Shown: positions 3,957 to 7,170 of the stretch, piece after piece
Layout: every line of letters starts with the position of its first letter
How positions within the stretch are numbered: the first letter of the stretch is position 1
From: Bacteroidales bacterium
GTDB taxonomy: Bacteria; Bacteroidota; Bacteroidia; Bacteroidales; F082
Assembly (NCBI GenBank): GCA_017508895.1
Contig: JAFWRA010000173.1
Span: 1 to 7,341 of the forward strand
Reading direction: 5' to 3'
DNA: 7,341 nucleotides
Position numbers and translations under genes: made by a program
The notes under the pieces: model-generated
Database searches by the model: none
What the model was told of the DNA's origin: nothing
Seen by the model: the letters and a program-made list of their open reading frames with translations, nothing else

Positions 3957-3997
3957 TTATTTATAATGCGTAAAAATTACACATTATAAATAATTAA
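3953..3997. repeat. 45-bp near-perfect palindrome spanning the antiporter stop codon
   Basis: The arms 3953-3973 and 3977-3997 pair at 20 of 21 positions around AAA; the only mismatch is C3969/A3981. The outer 16 bp are pure A/T except one G:C pair. It includes the antiporter stop codon (3954-3956), and its core is the operator-like site at 3967-3983. It could act as a bidirectional AT-rich terminator, an extended protein-binding site, or both. There is no clean T-run directly after the stem, so a normal terminator role is uncertain. Confidence 0.75.
3967..3983. promoter_or_regulatory. Operator-like site O1, TGCGTAA-N3-TTACACA
   Basis: This 17-bp inverted repeat reads TGCGTAAAAATTACACA and has one asymmetric pair. 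It differs from site O3 (4084-4100) at only two positions. It lies 117 bp upstream of O3, centre to centre, within the palindrome after the antiporter gene. The likely binder is the Nudix/winged-helix protein encoded just downstream; this is inferred from position and symmetry. Confidence 0.5.
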
Positions 3998-4030: not shown

Positions 4031-4047
4031 AATGTAAATTTTACACA
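4031..4047. promoter_or_regulatory. Operator-like site O2, core TGTAA-N3-TTACA
   Basis: TGTAAATTTTACA (4033-4045) is a perfect inverted repeat around three bases and continues into the shared right arm TTACACA. It sits just upstream of the -33 box of the Nudix gene promoter. Its centre is 64 bp from O1 and 53 bp from O3, close to six and five helical turns. A lone right half, TTACACA, also occurs at 4016-4022. Confidence 0.5.
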
Positions 4048-4054
4048 TTTTTCT

Positions 4055-4085
4055 ATTGTAGGTTTCAGAAATAGTCGTACTTTTG
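4055..4085 (+). promoter_or_regulatory. Bacteroidota-type promoter of the Nudix regulator gene
   Basis: TACTTTTG at 4078-4085 is a full match to the -7 consensus TAnnTTTG. ATTG at 4055-4058 serves as the -33 box with a 19-base gap. The transcript should start near 4091-4093, leaving a leader of only about 10-12 bases before the ATG at 4103. Operator O3 begins inside the -7 element and covers the start site, as expected for repression. Confidence 0.75.
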
Positions 4086-4100
4086 CGTCAAATTTACACA
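4084..4100. promoter_or_regulatory. Operator-like site O3 overlapping the transcription start
   Basis: TGCGTCAAATTTACACA matches O1 at 15 of 17 positions and keeps the TTACACA right arm. It overlaps the last two bases of the -7 box and the predicted start site, so a bound protein would block RNA polymerase. The symmetry is imperfect (C/A and C/T at two inner pairs). Confidence 0.5.
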
Positions 4101-4102
4101 AT

Positions 4103-4909
4103 ATGGAAAAACAAAAATACACCTACGACTATCCACGACCGGCAGTGACAACTGATTGTGTGGTATTTGGTTTTGACGGGCACGACCTGAAAATCCTGCT
4201 TATTCAACGTGGCATTGAGCCCTACAAAGGCACATGGGCCTTCCCTGGAGGATTCCTCAATATGGACGAGACGGCAGAGCAAGGGGCTTTGCGCGAACTG
4301 AAGGAAGAAACAGGGCTCGATTTGCGCTACATCAAACAGGTCGGGGCATTCTCCGATGTCAATCGTGACCCGCGCAGCCGCGTCATCACCATCGCTTTTT
4401 ATGCTTTGGCAAAGAAATCGGAAGTGCAAGGTGGCGATGATGCTGCCAAAGCACAATGGTTTGCCCTGAATGAAATACCTCGATTAGCTTTCGACCACGA
4501 CTATATCCTCAGGAAGACCATGGAAAGACTACGCAAGGACATTCACTTCGAACCAATTGGCTTTGGACTGTTGGACGAACAATTTACCATTCCTGAACTG
4601 CAACGTCTCTACGAAGCCATCCTCGGAGTGCAGTTTGATCGCCGCAATTTCTACAAGAAAATCTTGCAGACGGGCATCCTCGACGAGGTGGAAGATGATG
4701 ACGATCGACGTTATTTTGGAGAGCATCACGAAATGCGCAGCATGGACATCGGGGCATTGTTTGGAAGCATAGCTTCAGAAGCTCTTCCCTCCTACTCCAC
4801 TGCGCGTTCAGATGACGAAAGCCGCCGCCGAAAAGGAACGCGCTTCTCCTTCAACAAGAAACGCTACGACCAGTTTAAGGAAGACAATAATTTCAGATTA
4901 GAGTTTTAA
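4103..4909 (+). CDS. NrtR-like Nudix hydrolase / winged-helix transcriptional regulator
   Basis: Protein of 268 aa. An N-terminal Nudix domain (about residues 10-145) carries a complete Nudix box, GX5EX7REUXEEXGU, at 50-72 (G50, E56, R64-E65, E68-E69, G71). Hydrolysis of a nucleoside diphosphate derivative such as ADP-ribose is therefore possible. A C-terminal winged-helix region (about 150-200, with FTIPELQRLYEAILG and RRNFYKKIL) is the hallmark of the NrtR family and the Bacteroides AraR-type relatives. Those regulators bind DNA and use the Nudix fold to sense ADP-ribose or a sugar. An acidic patch (EVEDDDD) and a basic tail (RRRKGTRFSFNKKR) follow. The promoter carries operator-like repeats, so self-regulation is likely. 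The ligand is inferred: the two downstream genes point to ADP-ribose, while an AraR-like sugar role is the main alternative. Confidence 0.88.
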   Translation: MEKQKYTYDYPRPAVTTDCVVFGFDGHDLKILLIQRGIEPYKGTWAFPGGFLNMDETAEQGALRELKEETGLDLRYIKQVGAFSDVNRDPRSRVITIAFYALAKKSEVQGGDDAAKAQWFALNEIPRLAFDHDYILRKTMERLRKDIHFEPIGFGLLDEQFTIPELQRLYEAILGVQFDRRNFYKKILQTGILDEVEDDDDRRYFGEHHEMRSMDIGALFGSIASEALPSYSTARSDDESRRRKGTRFSFNKKRYDQFKEDNNFRLEF

Positions 4910-4911
4910 TC

Positions 4912-4985
4912 AGTTGAAAGTTGGAAGTTATTCAGTTGTTCAGTTATTAAATCTTGAATCTTTAAATCTTAAATCTTTAAATCTC
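4912..4985. repeat. Two back-to-back 7-8 bp tandem repeat arrays
   Basis: The gap between the Nudix and vWA genes is almost all repeat. First come five AGTTRNN units (4912-4948; AGTTGAA, AGTTGGA, AGTTATT, AGTTGTT, AGTTATT, the last two each preceded by an extra C). Then come five AAATCTT-like units (about 4949-4985; units of 7-8 bases). No TAnnTTTG promoter or TTACACA operator arm was seen in this gap. An A-rich stretch (AAAACAATAAATT) precedes the next ATG and probably serves translation initiation. Confidence 0.75.
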
Positions 4986-5001
4986 AATAAAACAATAAAT
5001 T

Positions 5002-6099
5002 ATGGAAACAAACAACACCACCGCAAAGACGCAGGTCTATAACCTGATCATCCTCGACAAGAGTGGCTCGATGAGCAGCATCGCCAACGCCGCCATCGCC
5101 GGATTCAACGAAACCGTGGGCGGCATCCGCTCGGCCCAAGAACGCTTCAAAGACACGCAAGAGCATTTTGTCTCGCTGATGATCTTCTGTAACTGCGAGA
5201 AGACCATGGTCTACGACATGGTGCCCGTTGACAAAGTCAAAGAACTGACATCCAAGGAATACCGCCCCTGCTGCTGCACGCCACTTTATGACGCTATGGG
5301 CATCAGTATCAATGCCTTGTACAACGCCATCAAGGACAAGGAAGACGCCACCGCCATGGTAACCGTCATCACCGATGGATTGGAGAATGCCTCGAAGGAA
5401 TACTCTGGCAAGGCTATCAAGGCACTTGTTGAACGCATGAAGGACGAGGAAGGCTGGAACTTCGCCTACATCGGCACCAACCAAGACGTGAGAGCCACTT
5501 CTGCCTCGCTCAGCATCGACAACCACATGGAATTCCGCGACGACGAAGTTGGTATGAGAGAAGCCTGGGAAAAGGAACGCAAGGCCAAGATGTCGATGTT
5601 CTCGCGATTCTCAATGGGTTTCGCTGCCACTTCTTCCATGACAAGTGCAGAGCGCAAGGCCTACCGCAGCAGAGAAAACCGCTCCTCAAAAAACTACCAC
5701 GAGATAGGCGAATTCCGTAACCGTGTCACGCCCGAGCATATCAATAGCCTTAAGGAAAACGAGATTTTCGTCTTTGGCAGCAACCTTGCAGGTATGCATG
5801 CCGGTGGCGCAGCTAGAATAGCCGTTGAAAAATTCGGCGCTATCATGGGTCAAGGCGTTGGCCTGCAGGGACAGAGCTATGCCATTCCTACGATGCAAGG
5901 CGGTCCTGACACCATCCTGCCCTATGTGGAGGAGTTCATCCGTTTCGCCGACATGCATCCTGAACTGACCTTCCTCGTCACCAAGATAGGCTGTGGCATC
6001 GCAGGCTTCACACCAAGGGAGATTGCACCCTTGTTTGCAGGAGCCATCAACGTGCAGAACATCCATTTGCCGATGGATTTTTGGAAGGAGCTGGTGTAA
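5002..6099 (+). CDS. vWA domain protein fused to an A1S_2505-type (macro-like?) domain
   Basis: Cytoplasmic protein of 365 aa without signal peptide or membrane segment. Residues about 10-175 are a von Willebrand A domain with a complete metal site: DxSxS (D19, S21, S23), T93 in CTPLYDAMG and D125 in ITDGLEN. A charged linker (about 176-245) follows. Residues about 248-362 resemble the small 'A1S_2505 family phage non-structural protein' group: NEIFVFGSNLAGMHAGGAA (253-271), GQGVGLQGQSYAIPTM (283-298), HPELTFLVTKIGCGIAGF (319-336) and a final LPxxFW. The glycine-rich start recalls nucleotide or ADP-ribose binding folds such as macro, but I cannot confirm that. vWA domains usually mediate metal-dependent protein assembly, so this may be a scaffold linking a partner to the C-terminal domain. 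It lies between a Nudix regulator and an ADP-ribosylglycohydrolase. C63, C65 and C90-C92 form an unusual cysteine group. Confidence 0.82.
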   Translation: METNNTTAKTQVYNLIILDKSGSMSSIANAAIAGFNETVGGIRSAQERFKDTQEHFVSLMIFCNCEKTMVYDMVPVDKVKELTSKEYRPCCCTPLYDAMGISINALYNAIKDKEDATAMVTVITDGLENASKEYSGKAIKALVERMKDEEGWNFAYIGTNQDVRATSASLSIDNHMEFRDDEVGMREAWEKERKAKMSMFSRFSMGFAATSSMTSAERKAYRSRENRSSKNYHEIGEFRNRVTPEHINSLKENEIFVFGSNLAGMHAGGAARIAVEKFGAIMGQGVGLQGQSYAIPTMQGGPDTILPYVEEFIRFADMHPELTFLVTKIGCGIAGFTPREIAPLFAGAINVQNIHLPMDFWKELV

Positions 6100-6122
6100 C
6101 TATGGCCCATGGCTGACAGCTC

Positions 6123-6176
6123 ATGGCCTGCTTCACCCAAAAGCTCTGTTTTCACGCCTTGGATGAAGCTGGCCAT
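6123..6176. repeat. Long imperfect inverted repeat (REP-like hairpin)
   Basis: ATGGCCTGCTTCA (6123-6135) pairs with TGAAGCTGGCCAT (6164-6176) at 12 of 13 positions. The pairing continues after a mismatch with CCAA (6137-6140) and TTGG (6159-6162). Additional GGCCATA words at 6171-6177 and 6187-6193 are complementary to TATGGCC at 6101-6107. There is no T-run, so it is not a classical terminator. It could be an mRNA-stabilising structure or a remnant of a dispersed repeat. Confidence 0.6.
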
Positions 6177-6204
6177 AAGGCTATAGGCCATACCATCGGC
6201 CCAA

Positions 6205-6244
6205 CAATTAAACAATTAAACAATTAAAAAATTAAACAATCAAC
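6205..6244. repeat. 8-bp tandem repeat CAATTAAA upstream of the glycohydrolase start
   Basis: Three exact CAATTAAA units (6205-6228), a variant AAATTAAA (6229-6236) and a degenerate CAATCAAC (6237-6244) end 10 bases before the ATG at 6255. Such a repeat can gain or lose units by slippage and so alter the translation-initiation region. Confidence 0.8.
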
Positions 6245-6254
6245 ATTAAACACC

Positions 6255-7109
6255 ATGTTAGGAGCAATCATAGGAGATACCGTTGGTTCGGTATATGAAT
6301 TTCACAACATAAAGACCACAGATTTTCCGCTGTTCAGTCCACAATGCGACTACACCGACGACAGCATCATGACCATAGCCGTGGCCGATTGGCTTTTGAC
6401 CGACCCGCAGCACGGCATGGACACCTTGGAGGCCTCTTTTTTGGCCTTTGCCAAGAAATACCCCTGCCCTATGGGTGGTTATGGAGGCGGTTTCCATCGC
6501 TGGCTGTTCCATCCCGAAGCATTGGGTGATTATGGGAGTCGCGACTTCAAACCTGGAACACGCCATCCCTACAACTCGTTCGGCAACGGTGCCGCCATGC
6601 GTTGCAGTGCCAACGGTTGGATGTTCGACAGCTTGGAAGAAACTGAGCGCGTGGCTGGGCTTTCTGCCGCCATCACCCACAACCATCCCGAGGGCATCAA
6701 GGGAGCGCAATCTACAGCGGCAGCCATCTTCATGGCCCGCAGCGGCAAAAGCAAAGAAGAGATAAGAAATTACATCTCAACGAAATACGGCTACAACCTC
6801 AACCGCACCTGCGATGAGATCCGACCCGTCTATGACTGGGATAGTTCCTGCCAAGGCACAGTACCCGAAGCCATGGTAGCCTTTTTCGACAGCACCGACT
6901 TCGAGTCAGCCATCAGGTTGGCGGTCTCGTTGGGCGGCGACAGTGACACCCTCGCCTGCATCACGGGCGGCATCGCGGAAGCGTTCTACAAGGATATTCC
7001 GGACAGCATCGCCTTGAAAATTTGGAGTCTCATTCCCGAAGATTTCAAGGGCATCCTCAGGAAAATGGAGGCACGGACGAGCTACCGCTTGCCGGAAATA
7101 CTCAAATAA
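6255..7109 (+). CDS. ADP-ribosylglycohydrolase (DraG/ARH family)
   Basis: Enzyme of 284 aa, expected to hydrolyse the N- or O-glycosidic bond linking ADP-ribose to a protein, nucleic acid or small molecule, using two metal ions (usually Mg2+). The all-helical family motifs are all present: GAIIGDTVGS (3-12), the first metal motif TDDS (34-37), NSFGNGAAMR (107-116), THNHPEGIKGAQ (141-152) and the second metal motif GGDSDT (227-232; D229, D231 and T232 as ligands by analogy with ARH3 and DraG). There is no signal peptide, so it is cytoplasmic. The length is normal for the family, and the ATG starts directly at the first conserved motif. It follows the Nudix regulator and vWA-fusion genes and ends before a strong terminator, so it is probably the last gene of that unit. 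The substrate (arginine, serine, nucleic acid or free metabolite) cannot be read from the sequence. Confidence 0.93.
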   Translation: MLGAIIGDTVGSVYEFHNIKTTDFPLFSPQCDYTDDSIMTIAVADWLLTDPQHGMDTLEASFLAFAKKYPCPMGGYGGGFHRWLFHPEALGDYGSRDFKPGTRHPYNSFGNGAAMRCSANGWMFDSLEETERVAGLSAAITHNHPEGIKGAQSTAAAIFMARSGKSKEEIRNYISTKYGYNLNRTCDEIRPVYDWDSSCQGTVPEAMVAFFDSTDFESAIRLAVSLGGDSDTLACITGGIAEAFYKDIPDSIALKIWSLIPEDFKGILRKMEARTSYRLPEILK

Positions 7110-7137: not shown

Positions 7138-7170
7138 GGCTGGAGTCAGTGGGGGCTGGCTCCAGCCTTT
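7138..7170 (+). terminator. Intrinsic terminator after the glycohydrolase gene
   Basis: A 12-bp stem pairs 7138-7149 (GGCTGGAGTCAG) with 7156-7167 (CTGGCTCCAGCC), with one G:U pair and a 6-base G-rich loop. It is followed by TTT, then A7 and TTTT. The T-run is short on the + strand. It separates the ADP-ribose gene group from rpsO. Confidence 0.8.

Follow-up and report, generated by a model that had tools for sequence, protein, structure and literature searches.

A putative inducible operon for the removal and degradation of ADP-ribose in a rumen Bacteroidales bacterium

Our analysis of a 7,341-nucleotide stretch of DNA (the window; contig JAFWRA010000173.1 of assembly GCA_017508895.1) from a rumen bacterium of the order Bacteroidales leads us to favor, on balance, the view that three of its genes form an inducible operon for taking off and degrading ADP-ribose. 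It would be a Bacteroidota variant of the ARG-centred host systems that Iyer, Burroughs, Anantharaman, and Aravind have predicted (Viruses 2022; PMC9503650, section 3.8). The genes are consecutive on the plus strand, as an earlier note on this DNA had stated and as was confirmed here. Gene 1 (4103-4909, an open reading frame (ORF) of 268 residues) encodes a Nudix domain (about 4142-4513) and an NrtR-type winged helix (about 4559-4702), gene 2 (5002-6099, 365 residues) a vWA domain (about 5026-5601) fused to a predicted macrodomain-like A1S_2505 domain (about 5740-6084), and gene 3 (6255-7109, 284 residues) an ARH family ADP-ribosylhydrolase; the intergenic gaps are 92 bases (genes 1 and 2) and 155 bases (genes 2 and 3). 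The idea of a de-ADP-ribosylation system with a Nudix repressor, an ARH and a vWA chaperone has been published before (PMC9503650), and what is new is the variant and the macrodomain assignment. An anti-phage purpose is plausible as a prediction; action against viral ADP-ribosylation is a prediction in the published description also (PMC9503650).

The adjacency of the three gene families is far above chance. The earlier note had proposed that they belong together and would have given up the idea if homologs were rarely adjacent in related genomes. In the nearest genus (99 genomes) this is not the case, because 32 of the 33 full vWA-A1S_2505 fusions lie beside a same-strand Nudix-winged-helix gene, with an ARH gene 16-186 bp downstream in 24 of these 32. 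The lone fusion lacking a Nudix neighbor (G660) begins at base 1 of its contig. These counts come from relatives, as the window's own genome was not in the searched set, and 61 gene rows entered the genus table, the others having been placed by visual inspection on other contigs or more than 40 kb from a Nudix match. Some match to the gene 2 protein was found in 34 of 60 relatives and, across the window and 15 further full-fusion loci (L031-L045), the Nudix gene was directly upstream in 16/16 and the ARH gene directly downstream in 12/16. Order-wide, 12 of 50 A1S_2505 matches (247 genomes) had an ARH match within 5 kb against 0.11 expected, one of the 12 being a 29-residue ARH fragment. A vWA-derived pattern scan of the contigs of the best 80 of 482 relatives, which is biased to vWA genes, gave among the matches listed 31 fusion ORFs of at least 340 residues that overlap with the loci of the genome searches, with a Nudix gene in 28 and an ARH gene in 15 of the mapped neighborhoods. 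Across the phylum, a match to some part was obtained in 34 of 345 genomes, with the full fusion only in G001; in the sampled genomes, the cassette therefore seems restricted to Bacteroidales.

The winged helix evidently goes with the cassette. Among 107 Nudix matches in the genus, the 49 that reach into a winged helix lie beside a full fusion (32), beside a vWA or A1S_2505 part (12), or beside neither (5; G685 and G683 are at a contig edge, G660 is split, and G663 and G646 are true exceptions). The 58 matches that have no winged helix include none beside a full fusion, five fused in frame to A1S_2505, four beside an A1S_2505 gene, and 49 beside none of these parts.

Related loci show a variable set of partners: Nudix-ARH-PTP phosphatase-A1S_2505 (L139), Nudix-radical SAM-NADAR-ARH (L145), a second vWA gene (L174), DUF1810 (L176) and, in G639, a NADAR-like protein encoded between the Nudix and vWA genes (sequence read by eye), apparently as a substitute for ARH. 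By analogy, this swapping of ADP-ribose-handling parts matches the description by Iyer et al. The G639 locus (L322:404-4443) comprises a Nudix-winged-helix gene with operator boxes, the NADAR-like gene, two ORFs of unknown nature and the vWA gene. Small related ORFs of 108-123 residues were seen beside ARH or ARH-A1S_2505 in vWA-A1S_2505 operons (L167:7425-7796, L170:2848-3174, L171:6126-6455); the one scanned, that of L170, had no Pfam match.

Upstream of gene 1 lie three 15-base palindromic boxes (strand not assigned) that the earlier note had left unmentioned. Box 1, GCGTAAAAATTACAC (3968-3982, at -135), matches GYGTAAWWWTTACRC exactly, while box 2, ATGTAAATTTTACAC (4032-4046, at -71, 5' of the -33-like element), and box 3, GCGTCAAATTTACAC (4085-4099, at -18, overlapping the presumed start of transcription), have one mismatch each; the window gave five strand-matches against 0.01 expected from shuffles. 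Of 54 cassette Nudix genes, 48 have at least one palindrome of the form GYGTAAWWWTTACRC upstream and 38 have two or more, compared with 1.6% and 0.04%, respectively, in shuffled controls (six loci were left out of this count: five duplicates and L037, which has boxes). Usually two boxes about 50-53 bp apart flank the core promoter; the window's clade has an additional one farther upstream, and most related promoters have a box near the position of box 2. In 16 cassette-bearing genomes, the exact pattern occurred 23 times; 22 of these sites belong to the cassette and the other lies elsewhere in G031, whereas the reversed pattern, used as control, gave 0 sites. The boxes are kept before other architectures (ARH-A1S_2505, Nudix-ARH-phosphatase) and were absent before the four Nudix-A1S_2505 and three plain Nudix genes examined, the Nudix gene of L323 and the Nudix-A1S_2505 gene of L313 having been left out. 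Because the patterns were drawn from the promoters later counted, with shuffles and the reversed pattern as sole controls, the boxes make a strong case for conservation, not for binding.

The protein likely to act at these boxes, as a repressor and possibly also as an ADP-ribose hydrolase, is that of gene 1. It has the full Nudix box (NUDIX PF00293, E 9.3e-23; signature at residues 50-72) and NrtR-type winged helix (NrtR_WHD PF21906, E 1.9e-17) first noted for it, and scores 131.3 bits with the NCBIfam equivalog NF050029 (NrtR), far under the 400-bit cut-off. Its nearest solved structure is AraR (5bs6, E 4e-45), and in Pfam its match to AraR_C (PF19368) is just above cut-off, as could be expected if the repressor sensed a sugar, the operon were sugar-related and ADP-ribose were a misreading. 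We find this very improbable, as the operon has no sugar gene and the partners are an ARH and a macrodomain-like domain. Moreover, the Nudix signature is impaired in AraR and in NAD-metabolism NrtR, according to PMC4666351, but intact in gene 1. AraR-like sugar sensing was rejected on the intact signature and the gene content; the same difference in signature suggests that gene 1 may be a repressor able also to destroy its inducer.

An intact Nudix signature would also suit housekeeping salvage, in which free ADP-ribose and by-products such as O-acetyl-ADP-ribose are returned to NAD-related pools, the vWA part does no more than aid assembly and no conflict is involved. In several relatives the operon sits between antiporter and S15 genes, like ordinary chromosomal genes. 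At the window's site after the antiporter gene, a plain Nudix gene that has no winged helix occupies the operon's place in G023 and G033, and a Nudix-A1S_2505 gene followed by an S15-sized ORF is found in G672; such a Nudix-macrodomain fusion is a plausible salvage enzyme. However, only 33 of the 99 genus genomes hold the full fusion, a vWA part is odd in salvage, and the operon has no NAD genes. A tight private repressor, with exact boxes virtually only at the operon, and an interchange with NADAR and phosphatase, which predicted conflict systems also show, are likewise difficult to reconcile with housekeeping, and we regard salvage as unlikely.

Gene 3 reads as the complete ARH-family enzyme it was taken for. 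It matches PF03747 (E 8.9e-35) with intact TDD (34-36) and GGDSDT (227-232) motifs, and E15, T34-D35-D36 and the G227-T232 region, which include the metal-site residues, are conserved in 14/14 aligned rows at the listed columns. The nearest solved sequence is ARH3 (E 1.1e-16), and the gene falls under the NCBIfam equivalog cut-offs for DraG (42.5 against 337 bits) and Tri1 (41.6 against 490 bits). The operon might instead be the antidote or off-switch for an ADP-ribosylating enzyme of the cell itself, a transferase or sirtuin whose gene lies elsewhere, by analogy with DraT-DraG or DarT-DarG. SIR2, vWA and A1S_2505 genes stand side by side on the Prevotella plasmid pE2-28 (L250:2179-5369), and sirtuin-macro pairs are known (PMC9503650). 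Yet no ADP-ribosyltransferase or coupled sirtuin gene was found among the five Pfam-scanned genes of the window, in line with the earlier note, and the DarT model matched in 0 of 16 cassette-bearing genomes, a search that covered DarT but no further transferase and no sirtuin. We consider such an antidote role quite unlikely; a DarTG-like pair in particular was rejected on the DarT result.

For gene 2, Pfam, PADLOC and PDB sequence searches were uninformative. Because no Pfam family reached E 1, the vWA call is based on the complete metal-site motif (D19xSxS, T93, D125) and on an AlphaFold2 model whose best Foldseek match is a TFIIH entry (3.1e-7), followed by integrin-type vWA domains. The NCBIfam A1S_2505 model NF049995 covers residues 255-360 (E 3.2e-42), and the fusion of the two domains stands as first described. 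The predicted structure of A1S_2505 is macrodomain-like, with the fold of the macrodomain superfamily in the model but no match to a sequence model of that family (Pfam, E 1). A1S_2505 is also fused directly to ARH and to Nudix, and these fusions recur across the A1S_2505 tree: four Nudix-A1S_2505 rows of the genus fall inside a clade with 17 vWA-A1S_2505 rows (98/93), and the Nudix-A1S_2505 protein of G114 groups with ARH-A1S_2505 rows of its own family. The history is likely one of repeated cassette collapse keeping Nudix and macrodomain. The tree has 115 columns, many open forks and a very long branch (L147), with L313 left out, and its change counts are gains or losses. Together, the model and the fusions support the proposal that the C-terminal domain of gene 2 probably deals with ADP-ribose. 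Because the lysine and aspartate that we take to be catalytic in TARG1 seem absent from A1S_2505 by motif comparison, the domain may bind rather than cut.

Relatives of A1S_2505 / PHROG 2072 were found in 362 of 50,697 phage records, one labelled N4 gp14-like (LIT1) and some labelled macro domain by their depositors. The homolog in Escherichia phage AL25 (L248:4019-4399) is an early-region gene just 5' of the RNA polymerase genes. Our literature search, which was thin on subscription papers and preprints, found no publication naming A1S_2505 as a macrodomain, nor one describing N4 gp14 as such; for A1S_2505 itself it brought up two Acinetobacter papers. We tentatively propose, as a possibility that falls short of being probable, that A1S_2505 / PHROG 2072 is an unrecognized minimal macrodomain family that phages and bacteria alike use in their conflict. 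Within Bacteroidales, this domain would be the common module of a self-resetting circuit, made of a repressor that is itself an ADP-ribose-destroying enzyme, a hydrolase freeing ADP-ribose and a vWA-macrodomain reader. The modules would have been repeatedly re-fused (vWA-, ARH- and Nudix-macrodomain), and collapse would leave a Nudix-macrodomain protein devoid of DNA-binding domain and operator.

The domain was also seen in other contexts. A1S_2505-like domains occur within very large phage proteins (L078:1-7116; BFVD models A0A7M1RUN7 and A0A7M1RZQ7) and, because one such protein is labelled ART-PolyVal-like, a macrodomain may accompany a transferase in the polyvalent proteins of phages. In L052:7604-8701, L053:7706-8791, L054:7421-8506 and L058:7526-8626, A1S_2505 is joined to a helix-turn-helix (HTH) / ECF-sigma-like protein (this region was scored in L052 only), with a separate vWA gene divergent from the fusion in all four. 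N-terminal A1S_2505 was found in proteins of 373-533 residues (L060:6735-8210, L132:560-1681, L068:6875-8476), whose remaining 245-400 residues matched neither Pfam nor NCBIfam in the two that were scanned (L060, L068); the L132 gene adjoins a Nudix-winged-helix gene.

In the model that we favor, the Nudix-winged-helix protein would at rest occupy the palindromes, located by comparison, on both sides of the core promoter, keeping the operon low. Rising ADP-ribose or a related product would enter the Nudix pocket, and the repressor would let go, as can be proposed from NrtR. The predicted hydrolase would then cut ADP-ribose off modified targets, as its family and active-site residues indicate. 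The gene 2 protein might hold these targets, its vWA part binding peptide via the metal site and its macrodomain part binding or cutting the ADP-ribose end. The system would reset when the repressor's intact Nudix box cleaves free ADP-ribose. What usually triggers it is probably the ADP-ribosylating activity of enzymes from outside, for instance from phages, because the window holds no transferase and no DarT was found in the 16 cassette-bearing genomes; this step is the least certain.

Several observations weigh against this model. Eight of the 32 cassettes have no adjoining ARH gene; two of these end at a contig edge (G643, G020), and six lack ARH there (G031, G216, G638, G021, G013, G011). 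The G663 and G646 genes are complete-looking and have no vWA or A1S_2505 neighbor, 6 of 54 cassette promoters have no box, and the strict Nudix signature is present in only 40 of 54 cassette Nudix genes. With PADLOC, gene 1 had a weak match and genes 2 and 3 had none, and among transferases the search of the 16 genomes covered DarT alone. Regarding the macrodomain, gene 2 has no Pfam Macro match at E 1, Foldseek of the A1S_2505 model against the PDB gave no match at E 0.001 (best 0.057), a profile search of PDB sequences gave weak matches up to E 10, with the macrodomain BT1257 (E 1.1) among unrelated proteins, and the presumed TARG1 residues are seemingly missing. Finally, the flanks are ordinary genes: a Porin_10 gene and a Na/H-exchanger-type antiporter gene on the 5' side (Pfam), and the start of a gene reading by eye as ribosomal protein S15 on the 3' side.

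The operon had been described as bounded by a promoter and a terminator. A hairpin at 7138-7167 (plus strand; 13 pairs, then TTTAAAAAAATTTT) folds strongly (-26.1 kcal/mol, z -6.4) and is read as the operon's terminator, although it came from separate folding and is not among the terminators listed by the window-wide scan. The promoter was read by eye at 4056-4085 (plus strand; TTG at 4056-4058, 19 bases, and TACTTTTG at 4078-4085) from TTG-N19-TACTTTTG, presumably the Bacteroidota consensus, whereas a sigma-70 scan, which does not cover Bacteroidota, found 8 promoters against 9.1 expected, not above chance. A second terminator-like hairpin of 12 pairs lies at 146-176, 5' of the porin gene.

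If the model is correct, predicted anti-ADP-ribosylation operons extend to Bacteroidota, and the defined operator makes induction directly testable. A domain of unknown function, present in phage genomes by the hundreds and in thousands of proteins, would gain a likely fold and ligand, and the natural variants with and without the regulator are ready-made comparisons.

Compared with known proteins, gene 1 resembles NrtR and AraR in joining Nudix and winged helix and in having two promoter boxes, as at the tandem sites of AraR; it differs in its intact signature, and in exact boxes that are confined to the cassette, one site excepted. Unlike macrodomains of the TARG1, Poa1p and DarG types, A1S_2505 has about 115 residues and no Pfam Macro match. 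The proteins of N4-like phages have this domain in common with gene 2, but there it is mostly a single early-region protein, while here it is fused to vWA in a regulated operon. The closest likeness is to the ARG-centred systems, which are predicted to bring together repressors of Nudix or WYL type, phosphatases, chaperones (vWA among others) and accessory Macro or NADAR proteins, and to stay silent by default until released ADP-ribose induces them (PMC9503650). The window shares with them the ARH/ARG core (PF03747) devoid of a coupled transferase, a Nudix-HTH negative regulator and a vWA among the chaperones (by fold and motif), as well as the variable Macro, NADAR and phosphatase partners of its relatives and the same proposed logic. 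Nudix-HTH and WYL regulators together occur in over 42% of these systems, and a coupled phosphatase in little over 55%, so it is not obligatory (PMC9503650); the window operon has none, whereas the related locus L139 has one of PTP type. The published systems were named in actinobacteria, planctomycetes and proteobacteria, the word "bacteroidetes" being absent from the main text of PMC9503650, whereas the present operon is in Bacteroidota, with its vWA fused to the macrodomain-like A1S_2505 and a conserved operator pair defined here.

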